A program made the position numbers and the translations under genes. A model generated the notes under the pieces. It saw only the letters and a list, made by a program, of their open reading frames with translations. It ran no database searches and was not told where the DNA came from. Shown here piece by piece: positions 18,781 to 45,122 of a DNA stretch of 64,000 nucleotides (position 1 is its first letter; each line of letters opens with the position of its first letter). Source of the DNA: Parvibaculum sp. (GTDB lineage Bacteria; Pseudomonadota; Alphaproteobacteria; Parvibaculales; Parvibaculaceae); contig NZ_JAUYUS010000045.1 in assembly GCF_030694575.1 (NCBI RefSeq), positions 1-64,000 on the forward strand, read 5' to 3'.

Positions 18781-18802
18781 AGCTTACGTCGATCGGAGAC
18801 TG

Positions 18803-20554: not shown

Positions 20555-20615
20555 CTTCTCCCCTCCCTTGGATAACCCGAAACGGGTTGGAACCATCCTC
20601 AAGCCGTCATACGGC

Positions 20616-21560
20616 TCATTCATCCATTTCCAGAATTCGTCCTCGATGACCGACAAGCACCGGCTTGTCTCGAGCCGTCGAGGATGCGACCGCCTGATAC
20701 CAGCCGGTTTCAATGTCGCTGCGCGCCACCGGCTTCCAGGTGCGGCCGCCATCGTGGCTTGAGTAAGCGCCGCGAATACCGACGGCGAAGGCGCGCGTGC
20801 CGGACTGCCAGACACCCAGCAAATTCGTATCGGAAAGCCGCTCCCGCTCGCGCCAGCTCGCACCGCTATCGGTGGTGGCGAGAACGAGGCCCTCCTGACC
20901 GACGGCGATGCCACGGCCTTTCTCATCTATCGTAAAGTCGAAGATCGACGCTTCGCCCTTGTGCGCGACGGTCCATGAGGTACCGCCATCGGAGGAGCGG
21001 AGTATCAAGCCGAATTCGCCGCCGACGGTGATGACGTTGCCGACGATCTGGACCGCATAGAGATGCGGCTCGACGTAATCGTCGACGATCGGCATCCAGT
21101 CGAGTTCAGCGGCCGACCAATGCGCGCCGTTGTCGCGCGAAACGAGGATTGTGCCGAAGCCGCCGACGGCCGCGACAAGTCCGCCTTCGCCCAGAGCTAC
21201 CGCGAAGAGACGTGCGTCCGTGCCGCTTTCGAGCGTGGTCCATCCGGCGCCGTCCAGACGGAATATCTGTCCAGACTGACCGACGATGAAGCGCCGGCCA
21301 CCCGCGGCCGCCACGCCCAGCAAGGCGAGATCGGTCTCGGGCCGTACGTGATGCGACCAATTGCGGCCGCTGTCCTCGCTCGCGAGCACGGTGCCGCCGC
21401 CGCCCACCGCCATGCCCGACGAGCCGTCGAATACTACGTCGAAAAGCACGTCATGCGGCGTACCGCGATACCGGAGGTATGGATCGTCGGTCGCGGCCAG
21501 CGCCGCGAATGCGGGCAGCAGCGCCAGAACGAGACCTGCGGCAGCAAATTTTCTCAACAT
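20616..21560 (-). CDS. YCF48-related/BNR-repeat beta-propeller, exported
   Basis: Signal peptide; repeats of S-x-D-x-G-x-x-W (LASEDSGRNWSHH, LVSRDNGAHWSAA, LRSSDGGTSWTVA, LATTDSGASWRER). Confidence 0.88.
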   Translation of the reverse strand: MLRKFAAAGLVLALLPAFAALAATDDPYLRYRGTPHDVLFDVVFDGSSGMAVGGGGTVLASEDSGRNWSHHVRPETDLALLGVAAAGGRRFIVGQSGQIFRLDGAGWTTLESGTDARLFAVALGEGGLVAAVGGFGTILVSRDNGAHWSAAELDWMPIVDDYVEPHLYAVQIVGNVITVGGEFGLILRSSDGGTSWTVAHKGEASIFDFTIDEKGRGIAVGQEGLVLATTDSGASWRERERLSDTNLLGVWQSGTRAFAVGIRGAYSSHDGGRTWKPVARSDIETGWYQAVASSTARDKPVLVGHRGRILEMDE

Positions 21561-21623
21561 CTATCTTCCTCCCGAGGACAAGGGGACGCCGGCCTTTTCG
21601 CCGGCGCCCCCGCGACCCGGCTT

Positions 21624-23003: not shown

Positions 23004-23040
23004 TTCCTTCCTCCTCCCAGTAGGACAGGAACCCGCCGGC

Positions 23041-25533
23041 TTATGGCCGGAGCGGGACCACCTCAACCACTTCGTTTGTCGGGTGCTTCACCATCTCCGC
23101 AGCCTTTGCGCGGAGATTTTCGTCAGAGTTTTCGGATGCGAGGGCTTCGAGGTCGACGCCCTCGCTCACAAGCAGTTCCGTGGATTCGATAAAGCGCGGC
23201 CGGATCAACCAGACGAGCAGCGGCACAACGATGAGCGCAATGACCATGTTGATAAGCATGACCATGACGAGCAGCAGGCCCATGTCGGCGAGGAACTTGA
23301 GCGCCGACAGGAAGTACCAGGGCAGGATGCCGATGAGTACGATGGTGGCCGTGAAGAAGATGGCTTTGCCCGTCGTCGTGACTGCCGTGAGAATGGCGAG
23401 CGCCATGTCCTTCCGCATCTGGTATTCCTCGTAGATGCGGCTCAGAAGATAAATTCCGTAGTCGATGCCCACGCCGACGCCAATGGCGGCGATCGGCAAT
23501 GTGTTGACGTCGAGGCCGATGCCCATTTCCGTCATGACCGCTGCGAGAAAGAGGTTCGACAGGTTGACGGGGATGAGCAGGAGAATACCGGCGACCACCG
23601 AGCGATAGGCGATGCTGCAGGTCACCAGAATGACGGCGTTCAACAGGCCGAGGATGATCCACTGATAGCTGTCGACCGTGTCGTTGATCGATTGCTGGAG
23701 GGCGATCGTGCCGCTGCCGAGCCTGATGCGGAAATCGTCGTATTCGGTGCCGATGATCTCGAGCGCCGCCCGCGCCTGGCGCAGGGCCCCGTCGACCGTG
23801 TCCTGCTTGTTGTCCTTGTACCAGAGGGACACGGTGCCATTGCGCTGCTCGAAATCCGTCACATGGAGAAAGGCCTTCGGCCCGGTGCCGACCATCAGGG
23901 CGCCGGCTGCGGCGCTGACGGCGGCATCGTCGTGGTCGAGAGGCGCCCATTTCGGATTGCCGCCGCTGAAGAGACGATTTGCCTCTGGCAGATAGTCGGC
24001 AAACGACAGCGACGCTTCCGGCGGGTTCGGCTGGCTCTCGAGCAGATGCTGAAGGCGCTGCATGGTGAGCGCGGTTTCCGCCTTGCGGACGACGCGTTCC
24101 ATGTCGTCGGGCGATTTCGACTCGAAGATGATTTCCAGCGTGTTCAGGCCCGGAAAGTGGCTGTTGATATTGGAGACAGCCACATTGAACTCGGAGTCCT
24201 CCCACAGGAGATTGCTTCCCTCGACGGGGTTGCCGATCTTCAGGTCCGACAATTTTCCGATGCTGAAGACAGTGAGCGCGACGAGGGCCGCAGCCGTGAT
24301 CCAGGCCCGGGGACCGAAGGACAAATGCGCGATGAGGCGCAGCAGCAGCTTGATGCCGCCATGCTTCGCCTCTCCCTTGTTGGCGCCGACGAGACGACCC
24401 ACATTCTTCGGTTCGGGCAGAAGCATGATGAGCAGCGGCGTCAACAGCACGTTGGTCGGCACCAGCATCATCGCCCAGAAGCCGCAGAAGAGCGCGAAAC
24501 GCTCCATCGCCGGGATGGGCGCGACGCCGATCAACAGGAGGCCGATTGCGTCCGTAGTGATGCCGAGGACGCCCGGCACCATCATGACGCTCAGCGAGAT
24601 TTCGGCGGCGCGGCGACGGTTCTTCACATGGTGGAGAACCTCGTAGAAGCGCTCGATGAACTGCACGCAATGGCTGAACGAGCGCGCCACGAGCAGTAGC
24701 GGAACGACCATGATGAGCGGTTCGATGGGCTGATTGAGCCAGCCGACAAAGCCAAATCCCCAGACGGCAGCGACAAGGCTTGTCGTCAGCGGCGCAACGA
24801 CACCGACGACGTTGCGCATATAGAAAATCAACGCGCCCAGCAATGCGAGACCCGTAACGGCGAAGATGCCGAGCATCTGCCATTCGTAGAAATAGACCCA
24901 ACCTGTGAGGATCGGCTGCCCGGCGATGTAGACATCGTGCTTGTCGTCGCGGGCGTCCTTCACGAGCTTGTCGAGGTGCTCGAACGTCACGCCGTAGTCG
25001 AGCAGGCGCTCAATGAAGGTCGCGGTGATGAGGGTCGCCGTTTCGTCCTCGGAGACCATGAACGTGCGAACGTTCGGCGCCTTCAGCAGGCGGCTGCGGA
25101 ACTCCGCGATTTCAGCCGCCGTCCGCGGCGGGTGATCTCCCATCACGGGGCGGGAGTCGATACCGTTCGGCGTCGCCTCGGAATAACGCGCCTTCTCGGT
25201 GGCGACGGAGAGTATCTGGTCGTGATCGACGGCGGGCGTGAGATCGACATCGCGCGTCAGATCCCAGACCTTCTGCAACGTCTCGGCGTTGTAGATGTCG
25301 CCGTCTTTCCGCTTCACCATGATCGTGACGGTGAGCGGGTTGCCGAAGTTGGGATGGTCCTTGTAGGTCTGGACGAACGGATGGTTGCTTGGCAGCAGGT
25401 CGCTGAAGATCGTCCGCAGTTCGACGTTGCGGAGCTGAACCGCGAAGAATCCCGTGATCGCAATCAAGACAAGAAGCGACAGCCAGCGATGAGCCATCGT
25501 GGCCCGGGCTATTCGCGCACTCAACCGTTCCAC
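23041..25533 (-). CDS. MMPL/RND-superfamily transporter
   Basis: 830 aa, two repeats of large periplasmic loop plus TM bundle; GVGVGIDYGIYLLSRI. Confidence 0.92.
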   Translation of the reverse strand: MERLSARIARATMAHRWLSLLVLIAITGFFAVQLRNVELRTIFSDLLPSNHPFVQTYKDHPNFGNPLTVTIMVKRKDGDIYNAETLQKVWDLTRDVDLTPAVDHDQILSVATEKARYSEATPNGIDSRPVMGDHPPRTAAEIAEFRSRLLKAPNVRTFMVSEDETATLITATFIERLLDYGVTFEHLDKLVKDARDDKHDVYIAGQPILTGWVYFYEWQMLGIFAVTGLALLGALIFYMRNVVGVVAPLTTSLVAAVWGFGFVGWLNQPIEPLIMVVPLLLVARSFSHCVQFIERFYEVLHHVKNRRRAAEISLSVMMVPGVLGITTDAIGLLLIGVAPIPAMERFALFCGFWAMMLVPTNVLLTPLLIMLLPEPKNVGRLVGANKGEAKHGGIKLLLRLIAHLSFGPRAWITAAALVALTVFSIGKLSDLKIGNPVEGSNLLWEDSEFNVAVSNINSHFPGLNTLEIIFESKSPDDMERVVRKAETALTMQRLQHLLESQPNPPEASLSFADYLPEANRLFSGGNPKWAPLDHDDAAVSAAAGALMVGTGPKAFLHVTDFEQRNGTVSLWYKDNKQDTVDGALRQARAALEIIGTEYDDFRIRLGSGTIALQQSINDTVDSYQWIILGLLNAVILVTCSIAYRSVVAGILLLIPVNLSNLFLAAVMTEMGIGLDVNTLPIAAIGVGVGIDYGIYLLSRIYEEYQMRKDMALAILTAVTTTGKAIFFTATIVLIGILPWYFLSALKFLADMGLLLVMVMLINMVIALIVVPLLVWLIRPRFIESTELLVSEGVDLEALASENSDENLRAKAAEMVKHPTNEVVEVVPLRP

Positions 25534-26024
25534 TCGCTACTCCCCCTCAAAGGCTTTCGACACGATGGCGGGCGCCGCAAACGCGCGGGCCGCAATCAAT
25601 CCGTGTCGGGATAACTTCACCCTTCGCACCCTCACCCCTCCGGCCTTGTTCATCGGTTCGCAACCCCGATTCCGACCGTTTCAACAATGGTGGGTGACGC
25701 GGTCAGATCGCGCCCCGCCCTAAAGGATGGCGGCGCGGGAGCAGCGCAAAGAAGCTTGTAATTCAACGCATTATCCGGACACGTCCCCCGAGTTTGCTGC
25801 GCCGCATCACAACGCTGCGCACCTTCTCTCGCGTGCCCGGCTTCTCCACCCGATGTGGACTTTGAGCGATGACCGCAAGAGGCGGAACTACACGAACGGG
25901 GTGCGGCGCCTTCTCTTTCGAGCCGGCGGCGCGGGTGCGGGCCGCCCAATGGGGTGGGGTTGGCGGAGCTGCCGCTCACTAGGATTCGCGCAATAAAATG
26001 CAGCGCCGCGCAGGGGAGAGAAGC

Positions 26025-28025
26025 ATGGCCAATATGGGGGACCTGCTGTGGTCGCCATCCGACAAGATGGTTGCCGATGCCAATGTCACCGCCTTCATCG
26101 CGTGGCTCAACGAGCGCGGACACAAGTTCGGCAGCTATGACGAGTTGCGGCAATGGTCCGTCGACGACATAGCGGGCTTCTGGGAGGCGGTGTGGCGGTA
26201 TTTCGACGTCAGCTCCTCGACGCCTTACGAGTGTGTGTTGCGGGACGAAAAAATGCCCGGCGCGGAATGGTTTCCGGGCGCGCGGGTGAATTACATCCGG
26301 ACGCTTCTGTCCAAGGGGAGCGGCGACAAGACCGCGATCTATGCGGCAGGCGAGGAAGGCGCGGCGCGGAAGATCGGCTGGAACGAGTTGAAGGCGCAGG
26401 TCTTCAAGGTGGCGACGGCGTTGCGCGAGCTCGGCATCGGACCCGGCGACCGCGTGGTTTCCTACATGCCGAACGTGCCGGAAGCGGCGATTGCGTTCTT
26501 CGCGACGGCGAGCATCGGGGCGGTGTGGTCGAGCTGTTCGCCGGACTTCGGGGCGGCGAGCGTGATCGACCGCTTCAGCCAGATCGCGCCGAAACTCCTT
26601 TTCGCTACAGACAGTTACCGCTATGGCGGCAAGAATTTCGACCGGCGGGCGGAGGTCCGCGCGATGGTCGACGCCCTGCCCTCGCTGCAGCATGTCGTGC
26701 ATGTGACGGGTGCGGATCCGGACTATGGCAGCACGCCCGTAACGCCCGACGCCATTGCCTGGGGGAAGCTGGCTTCGCGGCCGGCGGTGAGCGAGGCGAA
26801 GTTCGTTTTCGAGGATACGCGCTTCGATCATCCCTTGTGGATCGTCTATTCGTCGGGGACGACGGGACTGCCGAAACCGTTCGTACACGGACATGGCGGC
26901 GTGCTGCTGGAAGCCCTGAAATTCACGCATTTTCACCTGAATCTGAAGCCCTCCTCCTGCATGTTCTACTTCACGACGACGGGCTGGGTGATGTGGAATA
27001 TCCTTCTTTCCGGGCTTGTCGCGGGGTCGGCGGTGGTTCTTTACGACGGCAACCCGATGACGCCGAAGCCGGACAGGTTGTGGGAACTGGCGGCGGAGAC
27101 GGGCATGACGCTCTTCGGCGCAAGCCCGACTTTTCTCAATGGACAGATGAAGTCAGGGATCGTCCCCAACAAGCTTTACGACCTCGAGCGGATGAAGAGC
27201 ATTCTCCTCGGCGGCTCGCCGGTGATGCCGGAGCACATGGAATGGTGCTTCGAAAACCTGCACCCGGACATGTGGGTGACGTCGCAGAGCGGCGGTACGG
27301 ATGTCGCTTCCGCCTTTGTCGGCGGGGTGCCGACGCTGCCGGTTCATGCCGGCGAAATCCAGGCGCGGTGCCTCGGCGTCGACGTCCATGCCTTTGACGA
27401 TGAGGGGAAATCCGTGATCGACGAGGTCGGCGAGCTGGTGGTCAGCAAGCCGATGCCGTCGATGCCGCTGTTCTTCTGGAACGACGAGGGCGGGCATCGT
27501 TATCACGACTCCTATTTCGATACGTATACGGATCATTGGCGGCATGGCGACTACTTCAAGGTCAATGAAAGGGGCGGCTGCTTCATTCTCGGGCGTTCGG
27601 ATTCGACGTTGAACCGCTATGGTGTGAGGATCGGCACAGCGGAGATTTACCGGACAATTGAAGGACTTGAGGAGATCGAGGACTCGATCATCGTCAATCT
27701 CGACCTGCCCGGGGGTAACTTTTTCATGCCGCTTTTCGTGGTGCTGAAAAAGGGTGTCGCGCTGGACGACAAGGTGAAGGAGAAAATCAACAAAGCGCTG
27801 CGGGAGAAGTACTCTCCGCGCCATGTGCCCGATCGGATTTATGAAATCGATGCGGTGCCCTATACGCTGACGGGCAAGAAAATGGAGGTGCCGGTGCGCA
27901 AGATCCTGCTCGGCGTGCCGGTGGACAAGGCGGCGAGCCGCGACGCCATGGCAAACCCTTCCGCCATCGACTATTTTCGCGATTTCGCGGCGACGCAGAC
28001 GGAGTATTCGACGGCCGCGGACTGA
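26025..28025 (+). CDS. Acetoacetate-CoA ligase (acetoacetyl-CoA synthetase) family
   Basis: VYSSGTTGLPKPFVHGHGG; FFTTTGWVMWN-type FYFTTTGWVMWNILLSGL; DSTLNRYGVRIGTAEIYR; LTGKKMEVPVRKIL. Confidence 0.93.
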   Translation: MANMGDLLWSPSDKMVADANVTAFIAWLNERGHKFGSYDELRQWSVDDIAGFWEAVWRYFDVSSSTPYECVLRDEKMPGAEWFPGARVNYIRTLLSKGSGDKTAIYAAGEEGAARKIGWNELKAQVFKVATALRELGIGPGDRVVSYMPNVPEAAIAFFATASIGAVWSSCSPDFGAASVIDRFSQIAPKLLFATDSYRYGGKNFDRRAEVRAMVDALPSLQHVVHVTGADPDYGSTPVTPDAIAWGKLASRPAVSEAKFVFEDTRFDHPLWIVYSSGTTGLPKPFVHGHGGVLLEALKFTHFHLNLKPSSCMFYFTTTGWVMWNILLSGLVAGSAVVLYDGNPMTPKPDRLWELAAETGMTLFGASPTFLNGQMKSGIVPNKLYDLERMKSILLGGSPVMPEHMEWCFENLHPDMWVTSQSGGTDVASAFVGGVPTLPVHAGEIQARCLGVDVHAFDDEGKSVIDEVGELVVSKPMPSMPLFFWNDEGGHRYHDSYFDTYTDHWRHGDYFKVNERGGCFILGRSDSTLNRYGVRIGTAEIYRTIEGLEEIEDSIIVNLDLPGGNFFMPLFVVLKKGVALDDKVKEKINKALREKYSPRHVPDRIYEIDAVPYTLTGKKMEVPVRKILLGVPVDKAASRDAMANPSAIDYFRDFAATQTEYSTAAD

Positions 28026-28565: not shown

Positions 28566-28603
28566 AAATAAAAATGGCTGCCTCATGTTTTCATGAGGCA
28601 GCC
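28566..28603 (-). terminator. Intrinsic terminator of the Apc-like operon, leftward (copy 2)
   Basis: Minus strand GGCTGCCTCATG-AAAA-CATGAGGCAGCC followed by ATTTTTATTT, 40 nt past the stop at 28643. Confidence 0.85.
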
Positions 28604-28642: not shown

Positions 28643-29407
28643 TCAGGCAGCCCGATCGCCCAATTGCTTGAGCCTCGCGAGCGCGGTCTCTGGAACCGTG
28701 TCCGCCGGCACTTCCATGAATAGCGGATTGTCGCCCGAGGGGAGGCCCGGCGCCCCCTCCGAAAAGACGGCTGGCAGAATTAAACCGGAACGGGCATCGC
28801 CCTGCCCCTCACCTTCGCGGTAGACGAGATCGAAGCCCGGCGCGGCGCCCCCCTGCCCCTTCAGGATGAGGATGGAGGGCACCTCGTAGTGGCGCGCGAC
28901 ATTGGTGAGGGGTTCGAAGAAGTCGAGGGCGCGGGCGTCCGTCTCCGTGAAGCGGAAGACGGAGAGACCGTCGCGGAAGAGCGCGCGGAGGAGATCGGCG
29001 AGCGAGAGGGCGAGATCGTCCAGCGTATCCTCGCCGATGTCGTCCGGCGCCAGGAAGAGCGCGGCGAGCGCACCGGGACCGGGGAGCGCGAGGGCGACGG
29101 GACGCGAACCCAGCGCACCGACCGAGGTTTCAATGCCGCGCTTCACATGGGCGCGGAAGCGCGGGTCGGCGAGCAGGCCCTCGATGGCGTCCGCATCCAG
29201 CGAGGCGCGGTCGATGCCTTCGAGGGTGCACCAGGCGAGGATCGCCTGCGTCACGTCCACATCGCTGATGGCGAGCGAGAGAAGCTGCGACAGCTCGCGG
29301 AGGAAGAGGCCGAGTTCGTCGGGCGCGGTCCAGGGATCGTCGCCGCCGCGCAGGACGCGGCGGCCGAAGGCATAGCCGTCGATCCAGAGCGGCGGCAGGC
29401 CGGCCAC
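28643..29407 (-). CDS. Possible fifth (epsilon/ApcE-like) subunit of an acetophenone-carboxylase-type complex
   Basis: 254-aa ORF 4 bp after the HyuB-type gene; assignment by position and size only. Confidence 0.6.
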   Translation of the reverse strand: MAGLPPLWIDGYAFGRRVLRGGDDPWTAPDELGLFLRELSQLLSLAISDVDVTQAILAWCTLEGIDRASLDADAIEGLLADPRFRAHVKRGIETSVGALGSRPVALALPGPGALAALFLAPDDIGEDTLDDLALSLADLLRALFRDGLSVFRFTETDARALDFFEPLTNVARHYEVPSILILKGQGGAAPGFDLVYREGEGQGDARSGLILPAVFSEGAPGLPSGDNPLFMEVPADTVPETALARLKQLGDRAA

Positions 29408-29411
29408 CTTC

Positions 29412-31655
29412 TCAGGCCTTCTTGCGGAGCGCGGCGACTTCCGCTTCGAGCTTGTCGATCTTCACCTGCAGCGGATGGGCCATGACGACGGGCGGGTTCA
29501 CTTGGGCGGCCGGGTGGAGCTTGTCCGGCGAACCGGCATGGACCATCGTCTTGTCGTCCCAGCAGCCGAAATAGGGAACCTTGCCGGTCGGCTTGTCCTT
29601 GACCCAACCTTCACAGAACGCGTCGAAGGGCTCGCTCTTCGCGATGCGCTCGCGGCGCGCCGCGTTGCGGGCTTCTTCCGTGGCCTTCTCGTCGATGTGG
29701 AGCGTCTCCTTGTCGTAGACGAGGCGGTAGATGCGCCAGGCGACGTCGTGGGAGATCAGGCCTTCGTCGATGTCGCGGATCACATCGGCCGGCAGGCGCT
29801 CCAGCGGATCGCCGAAGCCGCCGCCCGTCCCCTGCGCGATCATGTAAAGCTCGCCGCGCTGCGCCAGCGTGTAGCCGAGCGTCATGGGGTGGGTCGAATA
29901 TTTCGCATCCGGGAAGGGACGCTCGTTCATCAGCTCCTCGATCGAGTAGCGGAAGGAGCCGGGATCGTTCTTCAGCACCTCGAAGACGTTGACGCCGCTG
30001 ACGCGGGCGAGCGGATAGGTCGGGCAGCCATAACCGCCGAAGAGGCCCGGCACGTTGGGGAACTTGGCACCCATCGCCGTCAGCATGAAACCGAAGGCGT
30101 CGCTGTCGCGCATGGCGAGGATCATCTGATAGCCCATGCCGCCGCGCTGCTTACCGAAGCCCTGATTGTCCTTCATCATCTTCTTGGAGACAATCTGGAT
30201 GAAGGGCATTTCCTCCTCGATGAATTCCTGCTCGCCGAGATCGGACATGGTGGCGAAGATCGGTGCGCAGCCATGCTCGCCGTCGCGGTCCGCGAGCGCG
30301 CCGCCGCCCATGCCGTTGATGTCGGCGCAGACATTGCCGACCATTTCGCCGTGCTGCGTCAGCCCGCCGAAGAGGAAGGTGTTGATCATGTTGAACCAGG
30401 GCGCGAGCACCTTGGTGTATTTGTTCGGATTGGAATAGAGGAGCTTCATGGCGCAGACCTGGCCCGCGCTCCATGCCGTGAAGACCGACATCATGGATTG
30501 CGCGCTCGGCGTGCCGAAGCCGGGCTTCAGGATCGACGGATTGTCGAAGATGAAATTGACGGGCGCGAGCACGCCCTGATTGCGCGGAATGTCCGGCCAG
30601 ATGAAGGTGAGGAAGAGCTGCGCGAGCATGCCCTTCACGGTCACGTCGAGGCTGTTGTTGGCGCGGTTGGTGAATTCGGGGCTCGAGCCGCGATAATCGA
30701 AGGTCAGCTCGTCGCCCTTCTTCGTCATTTCGAGATTGATCTTGATCTGCACGTTTTCGCGCAGCGTGCCGTCGGTCCACCATGAATGGCGCGTGGTGCC
30801 GTCCGGCCATTCGAGAAGGCGGCGGCGGACTTCGGCGTCGGTGTCCTCCAGGTTCATGCGGAGCGCAGCGACGACGGCCTCGACGCCATATTCGGCGATC
30901 GCCTCGTGGATGCGCGTTTCGATGCGGCGGCAGACATACATCTTCACCTTCATGTCCGCGTATTGGAGCTTCGGTTCGCGGACGGAATTCTGAAGGAAGG
31001 TGACGAGATCGCGCTTCAGCTTGTAGTTCTCGGCGACCTTGAAGGGGGACATTTTCAGCCCCTCGTCCCAGATCTGCTCGGCGAGCGAGGGCATGCCGCC
31101 CGGCTCGATGGCGCCGTTCTCGCCTTCATGCACGGTGGCGCCGGCCCAGGCGACGATCTTGCCGTCGTGGAAGACGGGCATCATCATGGACTGGTCGGTG
31201 TTGTGGGCCTGACCGTAGCGGGCGTCGTTGACGATGAAGACGTCGCCTTCGTTGACGCCAACTGTGGCTTCCTTCGTCCAGTACTTGTTGATGAACTTGA
31301 TCGGGTACTGCACGAGGTTGCAGAAGATGACGACGCCGCCGGAGCTGGCGAGCGTGAGGTCTCCCGATGCCGTGTAGACGGCGGAGACGCAGTCGCCCCA
31401 TTTGGCGCCCGGTGCGGCGCCCATGTTTTCCAGCATCTCGTAGCTCTCGTTGACGCCGGCGAGGAGACGCTCGCGGACGATTTCGAGGCGGACGGGATCC
31501 GATTCCCTGGCGATGCAGGCGTCCTCGAATTCCGTGCGGGCTTCGAGGCCGTGATTGTTCATGATTTCGCTGTCGGGCGAGAGATAGAGGCTTGTCTCGC
31601 TCAGGAAGTTTTCGACGGCGGATGAGGCCGCGCCGATGTCCATGTCGTCACCCAT
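29412..31655 (-). CDS. Hydantoinase B/acetone-acetophenone carboxylase large subunit (ApcD-like)
   Basis: 747 aa; VFIVNDARYGQAHNTDQSMMM...ATVHEGENGAIEPGGMPSLAEQIWDEGLKMSPFKV; RGSSPEFTNRANNSLDVTVKG; QGTGGGFGDPLERLP. Confidence 0.88.
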   Translation of the reverse strand: MGDDMDIGAASSAVENFLSETSLYLSPDSEIMNNHGLEARTEFEDACIARESDPVRLEIVRERLLAGVNESYEMLENMGAAPGAKWGDCVSAVYTASGDLTLASSGGVVIFCNLVQYPIKFINKYWTKEATVGVNEGDVFIVNDARYGQAHNTDQSMMMPVFHDGKIVAWAGATVHEGENGAIEPGGMPSLAEQIWDEGLKMSPFKVAENYKLKRDLVTFLQNSVREPKLQYADMKVKMYVCRRIETRIHEAIAEYGVEAVVAALRMNLEDTDAEVRRRLLEWPDGTTRHSWWTDGTLRENVQIKINLEMTKKGDELTFDYRGSSPEFTNRANNSLDVTVKGMLAQLFLTFIWPDIPRNQGVLAPVNFIFDNPSILKPGFGTPSAQSMMSVFTAWSAGQVCAMKLLYSNPNKYTKVLAPWFNMINTFLFGGLTQHGEMVGNVCADINGMGGGALADRDGEHGCAPIFATMSDLGEQEFIEEEMPFIQIVSKKMMKDNQGFGKQRGGMGYQMILAMRDSDAFGFMLTAMGAKFPNVPGLFGGYGCPTYPLARVSGVNVFEVLKNDPGSFRYSIEELMNERPFPDAKYSTHPMTLGYTLAQRGELYMIAQGTGGGFGDPLERLPADVIRDIDEGLISHDVAWRIYRLVYDKETLHIDEKATEEARNAARRERIAKSEPFDAFCEGWVKDKPTGKVPYFGCWDDKTMVHAGSPDKLHPAAQVNPPVVMAHPLQVKIDKLEAEVAALRKKA

Positions 31656-31757
31656 TTCGGTTCCTCCCGAGCGTTTTCATTGTTTGCGGCATATGGCTTG
31701 CCGGTGCGAAGACCCCACACTCCCCCTGCAGGAAGAGGGATATGCCGGATGTGCGAG

Positions 31758-31856
31758 CGTCATTGCGAGGAGCGCGGGACGCGCGACGACGCAATCCAGG
31801 AGTGGCAAATGCCGAGCCTGCCGCTTCTGGATTGCTTCGCTTCGCTCGCAATGACG
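31758..31856. repeat. Imperfect palindromic intergenic repeat
   Basis: CGTCATTGCGAGGAGCG...GACGACGCAATCCAG and CTGGATTGCTTCGCTTCGCTCGCAATGACG as opposing arms. Confidence 0.85.
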
Positions 31857-31910
31857 GGATTGGGTGTGAGCAGTGTTCTCTACCCGCGTTCACCGGCGCA
31901 ATGCCCATGG

Positions 31911-31930
31911 GCCCCGGCTTTCGCCGGGGT
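31911..31930. repeat. CCCCGGC-TTTC-GCCGGGG palindromic intergenic element
   Basis: GGGCCCCGGCTTTCGCCGGGGTGAC; common alphaproteobacterial intergenic motif (from memory). Confidence 0.7.
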
Positions 31931-31999
31931 GACACTTCTATTTTTGGCCACTCTCTTGCTTCTAGCCGCTCATTGCTTCGCGCTGCCGCCGGCATTTTG

Positions 32000-34132
32000 T
32001 TACACCTTCACGAAGAGGGCGGCGCCGTAGCGGCCGATGCGGAGGCGCCAGCCGGGCTCGACGAGGTAGGTTGTCGAGGGCGAGATGACGACGGCGGGGG
32101 CTTCGATGACGGCGCCGAAAGAGAGGTCGGCGAGGTCGTAGAAGCCGGTGGCGAGCGGCGCGGCGTGGCCGACGAAGTGGCAGTCGCGCGTGGAGGACGG
32201 CACGGGCGCGGCGGCGAGGTCCGCTTCCTCCGGCAGGACGCCCTTGAACTTCAAGGTCGACATGCTGGAATAGGTCGCGACGCGGATCGTGTTGACGCGG
32301 ATGCCGGCTTCCGGCGCCTGGCTGCCTTCGCCGTAGCGGCGGCCGTAATCCTTGGAGAAGGTGGAGAGCACTTCCATCAAATCGTCGGCCGACTCGAGCC
32401 GGTTCTTCGCAGCGACGACGGCTGTCTGCGCGAGCTGGTTGCCATAGCGCATGTCGAGTTCGAGGCGGTGACGGATCGCATCGGCGGGGACGCCCTGACG
32501 GAGCAGGTCTTCGCGGCCCTTCGCTTCCAGCTCCTCGACCAGCGCGTTGAAGCGCGGGAAATCGTCGAAGAGCGCGCGGGTATTCGAGTCGTAGAGCGAG
32601 AGATAGAGCGAACGCTCGTGGAAATGGAGCTGGTCCATGTTGCCGGCGCCGATGGCCGAGAAGATGGCGCTGAAGGGCGGGACCATGACGCGGGTGACGC
32701 CGAGGACATTGGCGATGCCGCAGGCATGAAGCGCGCCGTTGCCGCCATAGGCAAGCAAGGTGAAATGGCGGGGCTCGTAGCCGCGCACGCGCAGTTCCTG
32801 CGCGATGCCGTTCGCCATGTCGTTGTCGACCTTTTCGCGGATGAGCTTCGCTGCCTCGACGGCATCGACGCTCATGGGCTCGCCGACTTCCTTTTCGAGC
32901 GCGCGGAGGGCGCGGCGTTCGTTCAAGGGGATCGAACCGCCGGCATAACGGTCGGCAAGGAGATAGCCGAGGACGAGATCGGAATCCGTGACGGTCGGGT
33001 TGCGGCCGCCGCGATTGTAGCAGGCGGGGCCGGGATCGGAGCCGGCGCTTTCCGGGCCGACGACGACAGTGCGGCGGAGACGGTCGTAACGCGCGACGGA
33101 GCCGCCGCCGGCGCCGAGCGTGACGAGGTGGACCATCGGGATGTTGACGAGCCAGCGGCCGATGACGGGATTGAAGTCGTAGAACTTCACCCCGCCCTTC
33201 ACGACGAGGCCGATGTCGAAGGAGGTGCCGCCCATGTCGGTGCAGACGACGTTGCCGAGGTCGGTTTCGGCGGCGAGATGCTCCGAGGCATTGATGCCGG
33301 CGACGGGGCCGGAATGGATCGTCTGCAGGGCGTCCGTCGAATTCAACTGCGCCATGCCGCCGGAATTGTGGATGACGAGCATGGGCTTGCGGTAGCCATT
33401 GTCGCGGAGGTTCAACTCCAGCGTCGAGAGGCCGTGATACATCGCGTTGTGCAGGAAGGCGTCGATGATGGCCGACGAGGTGCGCGCATACTCGCCCTTA
33501 CGGCCACCGACCTGGTGCGAGAGGATGATGGGCGCGGAGCCGAGGAGATGTTCGGGGAATTCGTCGCGGATGATTTCCTCGATCAGCAATTCATGTTCCG
33601 GCTGCACGACGGCGTTGACGAGCGAGACGACGAAGGCCTGCACGCCGTTATCCACCAGTTCGCGGACGCGGGCACGCACATCCTCATCATCGACCGGCAT
33701 CAGGATTTCGCCGGTTTCGGCGACGCGCTCGCGGATGCCGACGATCATCTGCACGGGAACGAGTGGTTCCGGGCGCTGCGCCATGGGCAGGTCGCGGCGG
33801 AGACGGTCCGGCAGGCCCTCGCCATAGCCGCGGCCGCGGCTCAGGGGCACCATCGCCTCGAAGCCCGCCGTGACGAGGAGGCCGACGCGGGGGCCGCGCC
33901 GCTCGATCAGGGCGTTGGTGCCGAGCGTCGTCGCATAACGCACGCTATCGACTTCGCGCATGACTTCTTCCAGCGAGAGGCCGAGCTGCTCATAGGCGAT
34001 CTTCAGCGAGGCGTTGAAGCCGAGGGCGAGGTTCTGATGCGTGGTGAGCGCCTTCGCCTCGACATAGGCGTCGTCCCAGACGAGCGAGCAATCCGTGAAT
34101 GTTCCGCCGATGTCGACCGATACGCGACGCAT
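32000..34132 (-). CDS. Hydantoinase/ketone carboxylase ATP-binding subunit (HyuA family, ApcC-like)
   Basis: MRRVSVDIGGTFTDCSLVWDD; RYATTLGTNALIERRGPRVGLLVTAGFE; CTDMGGTSFDIGLV; LLAYGGNGALHACGIANVLGV. Confidence 0.9.
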   Translation of the reverse strand: MRRVSVDIGGTFTDCSLVWDDAYVEAKALTTHQNLALGFNASLKIAYEQLGLSLEEVMREVDSVRYATTLGTNALIERRGPRVGLLVTAGFEAMVPLSRGRGYGEGLPDRLRRDLPMAQRPEPLVPVQMIVGIRERVAETGEILMPVDDEDVRARVRELVDNGVQAFVVSLVNAVVQPEHELLIEEIIRDEFPEHLLGSAPIILSHQVGGRKGEYARTSSAIIDAFLHNAMYHGLSTLELNLRDNGYRKPMLVIHNSGGMAQLNSTDALQTIHSGPVAGINASEHLAAETDLGNVVCTDMGGTSFDIGLVVKGGVKFYDFNPVIGRWLVNIPMVHLVTLGAGGGSVARYDRLRRTVVVGPESAGSDPGPACYNRGGRNPTVTDSDLVLGYLLADRYAGGSIPLNERRALRALEKEVGEPMSVDAVEAAKLIREKVDNDMANGIAQELRVRGYEPRHFTLLAYGGNGALHACGIANVLGVTRVMVPPFSAIFSAIGAGNMDQLHFHERSLYLSLYDSNTRALFDDFPRFNALVEELEAKGREDLLRQGVPADAIRHRLELDMRYGNQLAQTAVVAAKNRLESADDLMEVLSTFSKDYGRRYGEGSQAPEAGIRVNTIRVATYSSMSTLKFKGVLPEEADLAAAPVPSSTRDCHFVGHAAPLATGFYDLADLSFGAVIEAPAVVISPSTTYLVEPGWRLRIGRYGAALFVKV

Positions 34133-34152
34133 GGTGCGATCCTTGTTCCTGT

Positions 34153-34554
34153 TCAGTGCGAATGCGAGTGCGGGGGCGCGACGAAATCGGGCCCGAGGGC
34201 GGGCGCGGCGAGCGGCTCGCGCTTCGCCCATTGCGCTTTCAGCGCGTCGATATCGAGTTCGATGTCGTGGGCCGGCGGATGGCCCGGCGGCAGGTATTCG
34301 ACTTCGGCGAGGCGGCCGCAGGAGGGGCAGCAATATTCGAGGATGCGGCACCAGTCGCCATCGGGCGCGAAGGTGATTTCGTAGCGTTCGGGATCGAGGA
34401 TGGGCGCGTGGATTTCTTCCGGCGCGCGGTCGCGGACCAGGAGGCCCTTCTTGTAGTTATCGCGGGCGGGGCCGAGATCGTGGCCGCAGGCGGCGCATTC
34501 CCAGCGTTCCTTGCCGAGATCGATCGTGAGCGCGGCGGTGATGAAGACTTTCAT
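34153..34554 (-). CDS. Acetone carboxylase gamma-like small subunit (ApcB-like), Cys-motif protein
   Basis: 133 aa; WECAACGHDLGPARDNYKKGLLVRDRAP...CRILEYCCPSCGRLAEVEYLPPGHPPAHDIELDI, two CxxC motifs. Confidence 0.85.
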   Translation of the reverse strand: MKVFITAALTIDLGKERWECAACGHDLGPARDNYKKGLLVRDRAPEEIHAPILDPERYEITFAPDGDWCRILEYCCPSCGRLAEVEYLPPGHPPAHDIELDIDALKAQWAKREPLAAPALGPDFVAPPHSHSH

Positions 34555-34565
34555 TGTTCTGTTCC

Positions 34566-36494
34566 TCAGCGCTTCAGGAAAAGATCGCCATTGCCGCTGA
34601 CGACGAAGCGCCAGCCCTGCCTGACATGCGTGGTGAAGAAGGCTTCCTCGACGAGGCAGGGGCCGTCATGCCAATCGCCGGGGGAAAGTTCCTCGAGGCG
34701 GAAGAGCGGCAGGTCGGATGTGCCCTTGCGGATGCCGGAGGGTGTCGCCTTTCGCGTCTCGCCGCTTCCGGTGCCGCCGAGCGCGATCTTGTCGATCGGT
34801 TTGGTGACGCGAAGTTCGAGCCAGGTTTCGATATTGGCGCGGTCGAGCTGGCCGTTCAGTTTGGCGCGGGTGTAGCCGCTGCCATTCTTCGTCAGCACGG
34901 CGTAGTCGAGGCGGCATTCGGCGAGGTCGAAGCCTTCGGCGAGCATGCCGCGGCGGGCCTGTTCGGCGAGATCGGCCTTGGCACGGGCGAGCGCGCCGTC
35001 GCTGTCGCGCGCAAGTTCGGCCATGTAGCTGTGTTCGATGTCGGAGAAGGCGATGCCGTAGGCGGAGAAGACGGCGGCGAATTTCGGGATGAGGACCGTC
35101 TTCAGGCCGGCCATTTCGGCGACGCCGCAGGCGGACATGGGGCCCGCGCCGCCAAAGGCGAGGAGCGTGGCGCCGGGGTTTTCGCCCGCCCAGGATTTCA
35201 GCGTGGCGGCGATCTTGCCGTGATAGGCGGCGGCCATGGCTTCGGCGGCTTCGGCGAGCGGGAGGCCGAGCGGGTCGCCGACATGGGTCATGATGGCGCG
35301 GGCGGCGCGTTCGCGGTCGAGCACCATGCGGCCGCCGAAATAGGAATGGGGATCGAGGATGCCCAGCGCGAGGAAGGCGTCGGTCATGGTGGCGCTGGTG
35401 CCGCCGCGCGCGAAGCAGGCGGGGCCGGGCGCGGAGCCGACGCTTTCGGGGCCGACGAGAATCTCGCCGCCTTCGGCGCGGATGATGGAGCCGCCGCCCG
35501 CGCCGATGCTTTCGACGGCGGAGAGCGGAATGGAGACGGGCGCGCCTTCGATATGGCCGGCATCGGCGACGGCGACGGTGGCGTTGTCGAAGACGGCGAT
35601 GTCGGTGGTCGTGCCGCCGATGTCGATGGAGACGGCGGCGGGGACACCGTAATGCTTCAGGAGGACCGCGCCGCCGACGACGCCGCCTTGCGGGCCGGAG
35701 GAATAGGTCTTGATGGCGACCGTCTTCGCGACGCGGGTGGAATTGCCGTCGTTGCGGAAGATGAGGAGCGGCTTCCTCGCGCGGTGCTCGCGGAGCTTGT
35801 TCTCGGCGTTGTAGAGGAAGGTTTCCATCGCGGGATGGAGGAAGGCGTTGACGACGCTCGTCCAGACGCGCTGCTCGACCGTGCCGATGCGGGTGAGCTC
35901 CGTGGAGAAGAGGAGCGGCACGGCACCGAGAAGGTGGCGCGGGAAGGCGCGGTAGAGCGCGCGCTTGGCGGCCTTCTCGCGCGTGGCGGCCTCGGCGCCG
36001 GCGAAGGCGACGACGATGCGGCTTGCACCGGACGAGACGAGCTTCGAGACGGCCATGACGAGTTCGGAGGTGGCGGAGGACGCGGCGGCGGGCGAGACGA
36101 CGCGGACGCGGTCGCCGACGAAGGCTTCGAAGAGAGCGGGCGCGGCATTCATCGCGCCGGAGAGAAGCGCATCGTCATCCGTCAGCAGGCCGACGCGGGG
36201 GCCCTTGCGCTGCACGATGGCATTGGTGCCCTGCGTGGTGGAATAGCGGATGTAGTCGATGGCGCCGACGAGTTTCGGCAGGTCGACCTCGCCGTTGATT
36301 TTTTCGGAGAGGGCTTCGAGACATTTGACGAAGCATTCCGTCAGGTCGTGCGGCGTGGTGATCGTCTTGGCGTGGATCGTGGAGACGCCGTCCGTGGCAC
36401 AGACATCCGTCAGCGTGCCGCCATTGTCGATGCTTACAAGAAGCCCCACCGCTCGTTCCTCCCCACTCGTCTTTTCGGCAAACAGCGTTGCCAT
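34566..36494 (-). CDS. Hydantoinase/ketone carboxylase ATP-binding subunit (HyuA family, ApcA-like)
   Basis: VGLLVSIDNGGTLTDVCATDG; RYSTTQGTNAIVQRKGPRVGLLTD; SIDIGGTTTDIAVF; LLAFGGAGPMSACGVAEMAGL. Confidence 0.9.
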   Translation of the reverse strand: MATLFAEKTSGEERAVGLLVSIDNGGTLTDVCATDGVSTIHAKTITTPHDLTECFVKCLEALSEKINGEVDLPKLVGAIDYIRYSTTQGTNAIVQRKGPRVGLLTDDDALLSGAMNAAPALFEAFVGDRVRVVSPAAASSATSELVMAVSKLVSSGASRIVVAFAGAEAATREKAAKRALYRAFPRHLLGAVPLLFSTELTRIGTVEQRVWTSVVNAFLHPAMETFLYNAENKLREHRARKPLLIFRNDGNSTRVAKTVAIKTYSSGPQGGVVGGAVLLKHYGVPAAVSIDIGGTTTDIAVFDNATVAVADAGHIEGAPVSIPLSAVESIGAGGGSIIRAEGGEILVGPESVGSAPGPACFARGGTSATMTDAFLALGILDPHSYFGGRMVLDRERAARAIMTHVGDPLGLPLAEAAEAMAAAYHGKIAATLKSWAGENPGATLLAFGGAGPMSACGVAEMAGLKTVLIPKFAAVFSAYGIAFSDIEHSYMAELARDSDGALARAKADLAEQARRGMLAEGFDLAECRLDYAVLTKNGSGYTRAKLNGQLDRANIETWLELRVTKPIDKIALGGTGSGETRKATPSGIRKGTSDLPLFRLEELSPGDWHDGPCLVEEAFFTTHVRQGWRFVVSGNGDLFLKR

Positions 36495-36566: not shown

Positions 36567-39320
36567 TCAGTCGATGAGACCGAAGTGGCGGGCGACGGAA
36601 ACGGCCTGCATGCGGTTGCCGATCTGCAGCTTCTCGAAGATGTTGCGGAGGTGCCATTTCACCGTGTTGGTGGAAAGCGAGAGACGATCCGCGAGGGCCT
36701 TGTTGGAGAAGCCGTTGGAGACGAGGCGCAGGATTTCGCGTTCGCGGTCGGTGAGTTCCTCGAGGAGATGCGGCGAGGGACTGTCGTCGCCGAAATCTTC
36801 CTCCGGCATCAGCGCCGGCGCGAACTCGCCCGCCTCGCTGAGCAGGAGATCGAGATAGGCGGAGACCTGATCCTTCTGCGGCAGGTCGGGAAATTTCGGC
36901 AAGGCCGCGCGCGCTTCTTGCAGCAGGCGCACGGCTTGCGGGCCTTCGTCGAGAACAAGACGGACGAACTGGCCCTGCGCGCCGATCTGCAAGGCCTCGA
37001 TGAGCGCGCGGCGGGCGGAATTCGTCTGGCCCTCGACGTTGAGCGAGATCGCCAGCAGGAGATTGAGTTTCATGAAGCGGCGAAGGCGGCGCTGCGAGCG
37101 CGCCTTGCGGGCGGCGGGCTGGAGCAGCGCGCGCGCATCCGCGTGACGGCCGGCGAGAATGAGAAGGCGGGCCTCGGTGATCGTCTGCGCTTCGGTTTCG
37201 CCCGCGTGATAGACGAGGTCTTCCTCGCCCTCCACATCGATCTGACCGAGACCCGCAAAGCGCGTGCGCGCCTTGTCGAGATCGCCCGCGAGCGTCGCCT
37301 GCCGCACGAGTTCGGCTTTCGAATAGATGACGAGGCGGCGGAGATTGTAGCGGTGGCCGATATACATCATGCGGTCGAGCACTTCTTCCGCCTCGCGCTC
37401 CTCGCCGCGCAGGATGGCGATGCGAGCCATGGTGAGGAAGGCATGCGCCAGCGGCTCGACGATGGCCTGCTGTTCGAGCAGGAGGAGATGATCGTGGAGA
37501 AGCGTTTCGGCCTCGGCGATGGCGTTTTTCTCGTAGAGCGTCTCGGCGAGGCAGGCGGCGATGACGGAACCGGCGGTGACGCTGGCGGTGGCGCCTTCCT
37601 CGTTGTGGATTTGCGCCTGCTTCAGGCTTTTCAGCGCTTCCTCGTTGCGGCCCTGGGTCGAGAGGACGTTGGCGTAGATCCATTCGCAGTATGAGAGGCC
37701 GAAGAGGTTGTGCACCTTGTCATGCAGGGCGCGGGCATGGGCGAGAGCTTCGCGCGCCTCCTCGAACCTGCTGTTGAGATAAAGCCAGTAGGCCCGGGCA
37801 TTGAGCGCAACCGCGTATTCGAGCCCCTTGTTGTCGGCAAGCTGTTCCAGTGCCTGCTGCGCGGTACGGCCGATTTCCACGACCTGGTCCTGCGCGGCGG
37901 TGGGGAAGATGCGCGTGTAGTGGTGTACGCCCCATTCCTCCGGCGACGCATTCCCTTCTTCGAGCGCGGCGCGACGGAGAGCGACGATGCGGTTCGCCTT
38001 GGCGAATTCGCGGCGAAACCCGTAAGCGACGATGGCGGCGTTGAGGATGTCTTCGTATTTCTGGATCACGCCCGGCGAGAGGCGGTCGGCATAGCGGACG
38101 ATGAGATCGAGACGCTCCTCGGTGACGAGGCGCTCGATGATGGCGTTGAGCATGCTGGCAGCGGCTTCCTGATCCGTCGCCTCAATGTAGTGAAGGATCG
38201 CCTCTTCGGAGAAGCCGTGCGAGGCGTACCAGTCGGCGATCTTGCGGTGGCGCGCGAGCACTTCCGCTTCCGACATTTCGCGGCGAAGGCGCGTGAGCAA
38301 TACCTGCCGGAAGACGGTGTGGAAGCGGAACCAGCGATGGTCCATATCGACGGGGGTGAGGAAAAGACCCAGATGCTCGATCTCGCCGAGCGCGGCTTCG
38401 CCGCCGGGGCCACCGGAGATGGCTTCGAGAAGTTCGGGGCAGATGCGTTCCGGCATGCAGGCTTCGAGAAGGGTGCGCTGTATCTGGCCGGACAGGTTTT
38501 CAAAGACGTCGGTGGCGAGGAAGTCGATCAGGTCGGGGGTGACGCCGGACACAGGAAGGGGCCGCGCCCTGCCCGTGCGACCGCGCATGGACAGGCGGAT
38601 ACACTGAAGCGCGGCGGGCCAGCCATCCGTCGCCACCTGATACTTGTCCAGTTCCTCGTCCGAAATGTCGCGAAACTCGCGGAAGAATTCCGTGGTTTCG
38701 TTGGCGCGGAAACGCAGGCCCTCGACGTTCACGACGACGGCCTGCTCGCGCAACTGGAGGCGCGGCAGATTGATCGCCGGGATGACGCGCGTGCCGATGC
38801 AGAGCTGCGCCGTTTTCGGCATGATGCGGACGAGCTGCGAAATCACGGCTTCCATGCCGGGATGCGCGGCCTGCTCGAAATTGTCGACGACGATGACGAT
38901 GCCGGACTGGACGGCACGGACGACGCGGAGAAAATCCTGAATGGAGGCTGACGAGCTTTCCGGAAGGGCAATCGCCGGATCGCTCTCGCCGAGCGCGCCG
39001 GCGACGGCCTCGCAGAGAAGGCGGAGAAAACGCGAGGGATCGGAGTAATGCGATTCCAGATGCAGCCAGGCGACGGGGCTGCCCTGGCTTTCGCGCCAGG
39101 CGCAATATTGACGGAGCAGCGTCGTCTTGCCGAAACCCGCGGGCGCCTGCACGACGATGAGCCGGACGCCGGTATGGTTTTTCAGACGGTCGAGCTGATG
39201 CTTGCGCAGCACGAGATTGTTCGACGCCGGATTGCGCCCAAGCCTGTGCGCGAAGGAACGCGGCACGCGTTCTTCCCCTGCCCCGGCTTGCGCCGGCTTC
39301 GGTTCCAATGCCCCGGCCAT
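36567..39320 (-). CDS. MalT/LAL-type LuxR family transcriptional regulator
   Basis: Walker A QAPAGFGKTTLLRQYCAW; TPR-rich middle; C-terminal LTDREREILRLVSNGFSNKALADRLSLSTNTVKWHLRNIFEKLQ. Confidence 0.93.
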   Translation of the reverse strand: MAGALEPKPAQAGAGEERVPRSFAHRLGRNPASNNLVLRKHQLDRLKNHTGVRLIVVQAPAGFGKTTLLRQYCAWRESQGSPVAWLHLESHYSDPSRFLRLLCEAVAGALGESDPAIALPESSSASIQDFLRVVRAVQSGIVIVVDNFEQAAHPGMEAVISQLVRIMPKTAQLCIGTRVIPAINLPRLQLREQAVVVNVEGLRFRANETTEFFREFRDISDEELDKYQVATDGWPAALQCIRLSMRGRTGRARPLPVSGVTPDLIDFLATDVFENLSGQIQRTLLEACMPERICPELLEAISGGPGGEAALGEIEHLGLFLTPVDMDHRWFRFHTVFRQVLLTRLRREMSEAEVLARHRKIADWYASHGFSEEAILHYIEATDQEAAASMLNAIIERLVTEERLDLIVRYADRLSPGVIQKYEDILNAAIVAYGFRREFAKANRIVALRRAALEEGNASPEEWGVHHYTRIFPTAAQDQVVEIGRTAQQALEQLADNKGLEYAVALNARAYWLYLNSRFEEAREALAHARALHDKVHNLFGLSYCEWIYANVLSTQGRNEEALKSLKQAQIHNEEGATASVTAGSVIAACLAETLYEKNAIAEAETLLHDHLLLLEQQAIVEPLAHAFLTMARIAILRGEEREAEEVLDRMMYIGHRYNLRRLVIYSKAELVRQATLAGDLDKARTRFAGLGQIDVEGEEDLVYHAGETEAQTITEARLLILAGRHADARALLQPAARKARSQRRLRRFMKLNLLLAISLNVEGQTNSARRALIEALQIGAQGQFVRLVLDEGPQAVRLLQEARAALPKFPDLPQKDQVSAYLDLLLSEAGEFAPALMPEEDFGDDSPSPHLLEELTDREREILRLVSNGFSNKALADRLSLSTNTVKWHLRNIFEKLQIGNRMQAVSVARHFGLID

Positions 39321-39412
39321 CGGCACCTTCCTCCTCCAAGGACGGCGGAAGCCTCGCGGTTTCCGCACACCCGCTTCAATGCGGGCTTATTGCCGTCTTC
39401 TTCCTTTCAGGC

Positions 39413-40432
39413 TCAGGCGCGCTCCTTCCCGATGCGCACCATGAGCTTGCCGTTGTTGCCTCCCGTATAGAGAAGGCTGAGTGCATCCCGCGCATTCTCC
39501 AGACCGTCGACGATGTGCAGACGGTATTTGAGCTTGCCCGAACGCATCCACTCAATGAGCTTCGCGTGGTATTCGGCGAAATGTTCCGCGTAATCGAGAA
39601 TGACGAAACCCTGAATGGTCAGCCGTTTCATGATGACATTGCGGAACATGTAAGGTCCGGGCACCGGCTCCGAGGAATTGTAGGTGGAGATGAGGCCGCA
39701 GATGACGACGCGGCCGCCCTCGTTCATCAGGGTGAGACCGGCATCGAGCTGTTCGCCGCCGACATTCTCGAAATGGACGTCGATGCCGTTCGGCGCTTCG
39801 CGCTTCAGCGCGTCGAGGACGTTTTCCTTACGGTAATCGATGGCGGCGTCGAAGCCGAGCTCGCCGGTCAGCCAGTTGCACTTTTCCAGCGAGCCTGCGA
39901 TGCCGATGACGCGGCAGCCATGCAGCTTCGCGATCTGGCCGACAAGCGCGCCGACGGCACCGGCCGCCGCCGTGACGACGACGGTGTCGCCCGGTTTCGG
40001 CTTGCCGATTTCGAGGAGGCCGACATAGGCGGTGGGGCCGGCGACGGCGAGAATGCCGAAAGCATCCGCAAGGGGCACGCCTTCAGGCTTCGGGAAAGGT
40101 GCGTAGCCGACGCCGTCGGTCACGAAATAATCGGACCATGTGCCGAGGCCGGTGACGAGGGAGCCTTGCGGGAAAGCGGGATTGCGGCTTTCGGCGACCT
40201 CGCCCAGCACGAAGCCGAGCATGCGCGAGCCGGTGGGCAGCGGGTCCATATAGGTGTCCCAGTCGCTCATCCAGACGCGGTTGGTGGCGTCGAGCGAGAT
40301 GTAGAGCGTGCGGACGAGGATTTCTCCGTCCCGCAGCGCCGGGAGCGGATCTTCGCGCAGGACGAGCGTGTCCGCTTCGATGACGTCCTTCGGGCGCTTG
40401 TTGAAATACCAGTGATGAGCCGTTGCCGACAC
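39413..40432 (-). CDS. MDR superfamily NADP-dependent oxidoreductase (CurA/leukotriene B4 dehydrogenase-like); GTG start proposed
   Basis: KPGDTVVVTAAAGAVGALVGQIAKLHGCRVIGIAGS; AIDYRKENVLDALK; VHFENVGGEQLDAGL; SD-like GGGGGGAGG before GTG. Confidence 0.88.
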   Translation of the reverse strand: MSATAHHWYFNKRPKDVIEADTLVLREDPLPALRDGEILVRTLYISLDATNRVWMSDWDTYMDPLPTGSRMLGFVLGEVAESRNPAFPQGSLVTGLGTWSDYFVTDGVGYAPFPKPEGVPLADAFGILAVAGPTAYVGLLEIGKPKPGDTVVVTAAAGAVGALVGQIAKLHGCRVIGIAGSLEKCNWLTGELGFDAAIDYRKENVLDALKREAPNGIDVHFENVGGEQLDAGLTLMNEGGRVVICGLISTYNSSEPVPGPYMFRNVIMKRLTIQGFVILDYAEHFAEYHAKLIEWMRSGKLKYRLHIVDGLENARDALSLLYTGGNNGKLMVRIGKERA

Positions 40433-40624
40433 CTGAGCCTCCCCCCGCTTTTGACCCAGTTGTGTAGAATTTCCTCCACGAAACCAGGCACTTATCGTTT
40501 TCAGCACGCTATCCTCCCCAGATGGCGCCTTGTTGCGAGGATGCTGGGGCAGTTTTCCGCCACCATACCCACCCGAAAGGGTGGGCATGAGAGAATGGCA
40601 CATTTCAGGAAGCCCGGAGAGGGG

Positions 40625-42527: not shown

Positions 42528-42531
42528 CCGC

Positions 42532-43641: not shown

Positions 43642-43663
43642 TCGTCTTTCTCCTCCGGCGCCG

Positions 43664-45058: not shown

Positions 45059-45122
45059 TTGTTTTCTCCCGATAAGGTTGAACCTGTTACGCGTGGCACA
45101 CGCCGCTTCGCTCACGGCAAGA

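Follow-up and report, generated by a model that had tools for sequence, protein, structure and literature searches.

The window, by which we mean the whole 64,000-nt stretch of Parvibaculum DNA that was analysed, carries on its minus strand five adjacent genes (36494-28643) that raise the question of which reaction, and which ketone, their products handle. The answer favoured here, at a probability of roughly 0.74, is that the genes specify a ketone carboxylase of the acetophenone carboxylase (Apc) type, five-subunit and ATP-dependent, the 3-oxo acid product of which would be activated by a dedicated ligase. The original prediction had read the genes as HyuA-type, small CxxC protein, HyuA-type, HyuB-type and unknown. 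All five ORFs are found with the predicted sizes and on one strand, and the Pfam assignments (HyuA, Acetone_carb_G, HyuA, HyuB and no family) agree with that series:

34566..36494, minus strand: alpha'-type subunit gene (ApcA-like HyuA, 642 aa); Pfam HyuA, 5L9W_b 2.8e-83
34153..34554, minus strand: gamma subunit gene (ApcB-like, 133 aa); PF08882 1.5e-39, 5L9W_C 4e-33
32000..34132, minus strand: alpha-type subunit gene (ApcC-like HyuA, 710 aa); Pfam HyuA, 5L9W_B 2.6e-156
29412..31655, minus strand: beta subunit gene (ApcD-like HyuB, 747 aa); Pfam HyuB, 5L9W_A 3.5e-80
28643..29407, minus strand: epsilon subunit gene (ApcE-like, 254 aa); profile, hhalign and fold comparison
28576..28603, minus strand: terminator-like hairpin ending the operon; 12-bp stem and T-run

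The 710-aa HyuA protein is taken from its ATG inside a longer ORF of 783 aa, and the gene of the 254-aa protein starts with GTG. The intergenic gaps are, in gene order, 11, 20, 344 and 4 nt, and the strong hairpin with its T-run lies 3' of the fifth gene (28603-28576). Between the alpha and beta genes, the 344-nt gap (31656-31999, minus strand) includes repeat-like palindromic sequence, CCCCGGCGAAAGCCGGGG and GTCATTGCGAGCGAAGCGAAGCAATCC. Several relatives have only a short gap at this place, which makes it look like an insertion. A simple scan found no sigma-70-type promoter. Upstream of the operon, in the same orientation, come a regulator gene (after a gap of 72 nt) and the gene of a CurA-type reductase (after another 44 nt), so that the transcription unit may start further upstream than the first subunit gene. 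The order of the five genes is kept in eleven other genomes of the genus and in seven further alphaproteobacterial genomes, so the array is not due to chance.

An Apc-like operon rather than the three-gene acxABC had been predicted, and both gene order and homology bear this out: the genes correspond, in sequence, to the alpha', gamma, alpha, beta and epsilon subunits of ApcABCDE from Aromatoleum aromaticum EbN1 (PDB entries 5L9W for the core and 9FOU for epsilon). Both HyuA proteins and the HyuB protein have 5L9W as their best PDB match. The gamma subunit aligns best with Apc gamma (5L9W_C, 4e-33) and then with acetone carboxylase gamma (1.3e-10), as the original prediction requires of the small protein. 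The NCBIfam Apc models are the top matches of the four core subunits, yet the scores stay far below the equivalog cut-offs, none of which is reached (bits/cut-off for ApcA-D: 334/1250, 136/250, 559/1500 and 312/1500). Unlike the gene order, the sequences of the large subunits are distant from those of Apc, at only about 27-40% identity, and the epsilon subunit is shorter (254 vs 303 aa). The beta subunit is longer (747 vs 684 aa, Apc having about 685 aa) and not shorter than that of Acx; as beta length is only an approximate guide (PMC5214803), it is treated as non-excluding for the Apc-type class. Acetone carboxylase (AcxABC of Xanthobacter; 5M45, 5SVB) shares with the window the combination of HyuA, HyuB and gamma subunits, the metal-ligand spacing and a 3-oxo acid as product, but it has three genes in another order, one HyuA, a longer gamma subunit and no alpha' or epsilon, and its proteins separate from those of the window in the trees.

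The residues of the ATP, zinc and metal sites are conserved. The Zn-finger cysteines of the gamma subunit (C20, C23, C76 and C79) align with C22, C25, C75 and C78 of Apc-gamma. The ATP-site motifs are intact in both HyuA proteins; those of alpha' read DNGGTLTD, DIGGTTTD and GPESVGSAPGP, and the alpha motif RERVAETG aligns with the Apc-alpha fingerprint RERIDSSG. The beta metal site, D88/H151/D154/H176, occupies invariant columns of the alignment and coincides with Asp65/His123/Asp126/His148 of Apc; its counterparts in Acx are Glu89/His150/Asp153/His175, and the lactamase CapB has an equivalent site. The motif H151-x2-D154-x21-H176, earlier taken for the Mn-ligand spacing of acetone carboxylase, is indeed present in the HyuB-type protein, but its spacing is not specific to that enzyme: shared by Apc and CapB, it is family-wide, does not mark a carboxylase, and was rejected as a marker of acetone carboxylase.

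Searched directly, the 254-aa protein has no match in Pfam, in NCBIfam or among PDB sequences, and a profile of its clade likewise finds none among PDB sequences. The profile was also run on 1,220 proteins from Apc-type and related loci. Here the top matches after its own clade are proteins encoded downstream of beta in Apc loci (2.7e-10, 1.4e-7, 9e-7 and onwards). In the reverse search an ApcE profile retrieves the 254-aa proteins of the genus (2.7e-7), and hhalign assigns the clade a probability of 98.4% against the ApcE group, whereas 18 unrelated families taken from these loci reach no more than 1.2%. In a Foldseek search of the PDB, the AlphaFold model of the protein (pTM 0.74) matches ApcE (9FOU) first, with an E-value of 1e-6, followed by methionine synthases and uroporphyrinogen decarboxylases with weak E-values; the alignment behind the model included ApcE rows, which makes this fold step, but not the profile tests, partly circular. 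A model of a bona fide ApcE matches 9FOU and next the methyltransferase 4AY7 and UROD. From profile comparison and structure prediction, the 254-aa protein is assigned as a divergent ApcE homologue with a predicted TIM barrel of the URO-D/MetE type, and a subunit missed by the family libraries is placed in the ApcE/URO-D fold. The profile comparison with Apc1-5 and AcxABC and the structural comparison with Apc5 that had been proposed as checks both lead to Apc, for the core subunits through 5L9W and for the fifth through the ApcE-position proteins and 9FOU. Some ApcE-position proteins pass the Pfam cut-off for URO-D (7.5e-20, 2.2e-13 and 9.7e-12), so that in some lineages epsilon is recognisable from sequence as a URO-D relative; they are encoded at L119:12005-12946, L103:8965-9975 and L110:11990-13006. 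Epsilon is the fastest-changing of the five subunits in the genus, with a median identity to the window protein of 60% vs 84-90% for the others, and Apc-epsilon has likewise been reported as fast-changing (PMC5214803).

In the beta tree the window protein belongs to a single group (support 100), which comprises Parvibaculum and five other alphaproteobacterial families (six genera and six families in all) and stands apart from Apc, from the three-gene acx systems and from the genome's own 5-oxoprolinase. The branches of this tree are long, and the order of the window clade relative to Acx and the locus L037 is left unfixed. In the alpha tree ApcA proteins are joined by the first HyuA protein (support 99) and ApcC proteins by the second, which indicates that the alpha/alpha' duplication is older than the split between the window clade and Apc. 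A grouping of the HyuA/HyuB pairs with hydantoinases or 5-oxoprolinases had been named beforehand as the outcome that would speak against a carboxylase; in both trees the window proteins stand apart from the 5-oxoprolinase of their own genome. Apc was represented in the genome scan by close relatives of EbN1 (beta 71-88% identity), EbN1 itself being absent.

The window clade also has its own residues at the two kinase pockets. The alpha pocket (T72 I272 H273 P276 I324 H335 L336) is near-fixed in the clade and specific to it, differing from both Apc and Acx. At the seven positions of the proposed acetophenone site, which in Apc-alpha are L81 F281 N282 P285 I333 Q344 T345, the clade has T-I/V-H-P-I-H-L vs L-F-N-P-I-Q-T in bona fide Apc; five of the seven differ and, the I/V exchange aside, are fixed otherwise. 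At the proposed bicarbonate site of alpha' the clade has S/G-D-D vs E-D-K in most of the Apc branch. Because the NCBIfam cut-offs are missed and both kinase pockets have fixed residues of their own, the cluster is classified, on its sequences, as Apc-type in architecture yet as a separate clade and not as Apc sensu stricto, so that the predicted Apc likeness holds for the five-gene organization and fails for membership of Apc proper. The window clade is a sister lineage of like architecture, probably with another substrate. To our knowledge, no biochemistry has been described for any of its members.

Two further observations concern the Apc-type loci at large. L062, L082 and L118 (a deltaproteobacterium, a Desulfobacula and a Paenibacillus) have, next to a full Apc cluster, an additional beta gene of the Apc type, which in some is accompanied by an alpha-type gene. 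L061 and L086 are contigs that bear the label Klebsiella pneumoniae MAG and have Apc-type genes like those of environmental gammaproteobacterial MAGs, and are probably mislabelled bins.

The five genes are flanked on both sides by the following genes:

39413..40603, minus strand: CurA-type MDR oxidoreductase (enone/alkenal reductase family); NCBIfam CurA 346/440 bits, below the cut-off; 44 nt upstream of the regulator gene
36567..39368, minus strand: MalT/LuxR-type regulator; Pfam TPR_MalT and GerE; 72 nt upstream of the first subunit gene
25998..28025, plus strand: acetoacetate-CoA-ligase-type enzyme (second AACS); TIGR01217 798 bits, cut-off 521
23041..25533, minus strand: HAE3 RND transporter (AmeD-like); Pfam MMPL, TIGR00921 best family
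21624..23066, minus strand: DUF1329 protein (AmeB-like); Pfam
20616..21560, minus strand: YCF48/BNR-repeat protein (AmeC-like); Pfam
18803..20926, minus strand: DUF1302 outer-membrane protein (AmeA-like); Pfam
17265..18644, minus strand: second DUF1329 protein; Pfam

The five-gene cluster occurs in 12 of 27 Parvibaculum genomes. Exactly these 12 have the MalT regulator, the second AACS (at least 74% identity) and a CurA copy of 77-100% identity, other CurA copies being at most 50% identical; the RND transporter is found in the same 12 and in G034. This co-occurrence (12/12 vs 0/15) corresponds to p = 6e-8 if the genomes are independent, which, within one genus, they phylogenetically are not. 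Carboxylase, second AACS, MalT regulator and CurA copy form an all-or-none island in Parvibaculum.

A generic AACS is present in nearly all genomes of the genus and is 41-45% identical to the second AACS. In three genomes of another family the genes are arranged on one strand in the order A-B-C-D-E-AACS-MalT, with the AACS gene directly after E. The ligases of these operons and the second AACS of Parvibaculum form one clade (support 100/99) away from generic AACS. Of the five families beyond the genus, four show no AACS within the approximately 20 kb read, and one of these four has another AMP-binding ligase. The second-AACS clade has the nearly fixed motifs GWVMWN, GASPT and AS[AG]F, which differ from GWMMWN, GTSA and SCF in classical AACS. 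We take these motifs to surround the acyl site, as in the acyl-CoA synthetase superfamily, and their alteration suggests a different acyl group.

A CoA ligase gene is linked to the cluster in Apc as well, and both systems are usable in aerobic metabolism; the window ligase is of the AACS type, and the MalT-type regulator stands where Apc has a two-component system. The clusters of G460 and G307 likewise have a MalT-type regulator close by; in G426 a sigma-54 activator is found instead. Two types of ketone carboxylase stand in tandem in L123 (G460; 8130-19720, minus strand), where an acx-like set of three genes is the immediate upstream neighbour of the five-gene Apc-type set and a MalT-type regulator.

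Beyond the AACS gene, the RND, DUF1329, YCF48 and DUF1302 genes (17265-25533, minus strand) have the composition of AmeABCD, the monoterpene-efflux cassette of Castellaniella defragrans (PMC6394551). Both cassettes lie beside a catabolic island, but AmeABCD is tied to terpene metabolism whereas the window cassette adjoins a ketone carboxylase. The same four families are also found near the Apc-type locus L093 of a deltaproteobacterium, and L131 (G021; 7206-15979) combines an AACS-type ligase (51% identity to that of the window) with DUF1302, DUF1329, YCF48 and RND genes and is without a carboxylase. On the other side of the island (41625-45115, minus strand), a carbamate kinase-like ORF, named by eye, a gene of the PAD_porph agmatine deiminase family and an amino acid permease gene stand in a row, which suggests an agmatine deiminase pathway.

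Subunit homology and order, the ATP-site, zinc and metal-site residues, the alpha/alpha' duplication and the link to ligase, regulator and island genes are observed directly. The mode of catalysis, the tasks of the two kinases and the substrate we infer as follows. The enzyme would have a core of alpha, alpha', beta and gamma and a separable epsilon subunit. By analogy with Apc, alpha would act as the kinase for the ketone in its enol form, and alpha' as a second kinase for bicarbonate; the latter role is less certain, because most of the Apc branch has an invariant Glu and Lys in the alpha' pocket and the window clade has neither. Epsilon, which on the Apc model would be required for turnover, would help, possibly together with the beta metal site, to join the enol phosphate with carboxyphosphate or CO2 to a 3-oxo acid. 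The dedicated AACS-type ligase would convert this acid to its CoA thioester, which a thiolase would cut into acetyl-CoA and acyl-CoA.

If the cluster were a five-subunit acetone (or butanone) carboxylase, it would form acetoacetate, to be converted to acetoacetyl-CoA by the neighbouring AACS. The linked ligase does score fully as an acetoacetate-CoA ligase (TIGR01217), and each cluster-bearing genome of the genus has a single PF08882 gene. However, the genus already has a generic AACS, the dedicated one has shifted acyl-site motifs, the alpha pocket is unlike that of Acx, and in G460 the five genes are immediately preceded by an acx-like set, which suggests that the two systems have different substrates; on balance we regard acetone as the less likely substrate. 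Far less probable is a true acetophenone (aryl ketone) carboxylase as in Aromatoleum. The five-gene order and the best similarity to 5L9W agree with it, but the scores fall far short of all four NCBIfam Apc equivalogs, five of the seven proposed pocket residues are changed, and the linked ligase is AACS-type, unlike the ligase beside one bona fide Apc locus, which carries a C-terminal domain of the PaaK type. An ATP-dependent lactamase or hydantoinase is hardly credible. Lactamases do occur among the HyuA and HyuB families, and CapB shares the beta metal site, but hydantoinases lack gamma, alpha' and epsilon subunits (PMC5214803), hydantoinases and 5-oxoprolinases being two-gene hyuAB or fused systems without the gamma subunit found here, the trees separate the window proteins from the 5-oxoprolinase of the same genome, and the linked gene encodes an acyl-CoA ligase.

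For the Apc-type ketone carboxylase with its dedicated ligase, the pocket residues indicate a substrate that is probably not acetophenone; it may be more hydrophobic or bulkier than acetone, and an enone is a possible precursor. We favour a hydrophobic ketone, with low certainty as to its structure. Tentatively, and at somewhat less than even odds, the clade could be a functional subfamily of five-subunit carboxylases in aerobic hydrocarbon degraders, acting on neither acetone nor acetophenone but on a bulky or hydrophobic ketone, such as an isoprenoid or long-chain methyl ketone reached via an enone, with a dedicated 3-oxoacyl-CoA ligase evolved from acetoacetate-CoA ligase. Literature on isoprenoid-ketone carboxylation and on Parvibaculum with squalene yielded nothing useful.

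The host had been presumed to be an aerobic alphaproteobacterium, which fits Parvibaculum: the type strain of the genus, P. lavamentivorans DS-1T, is aerobic and grows on alkanes and surfactants (PMC3368416). The complete cluster and island are also present in the genome taken as that of DS-1T (G013). This strain does not grow on hydroxyacetophenone, cyclohexanone or several tested terpenoids (PMC3368416), which speaks against these compounds as growth substrates of the system.

Aryl methyl ketones are carboxylated before CoA activation by HpeCBA, XccBCA and AcvABCDEF, also in aerobes; these are biotin enzymes, described as having no homology to Apc (PMC9618137), and HpeCBA and AcvABCDEF were rejected as aerobic analogues for that reason. 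Ketone catabolism seldom begins with aerobic carboxylation, and at the time of the family's definition (PMC5214803) just one characterised Apc was known. The window adds, from an aerobe, a lineage of Apc-type carboxylases that is paired with a dedicated ligase. Because this clade has a distinctive pocket signature and ligase and occurs in an aerobic host that can be cultured, genetics could address its substrate range and the roles of alpha, alpha' and epsilon.
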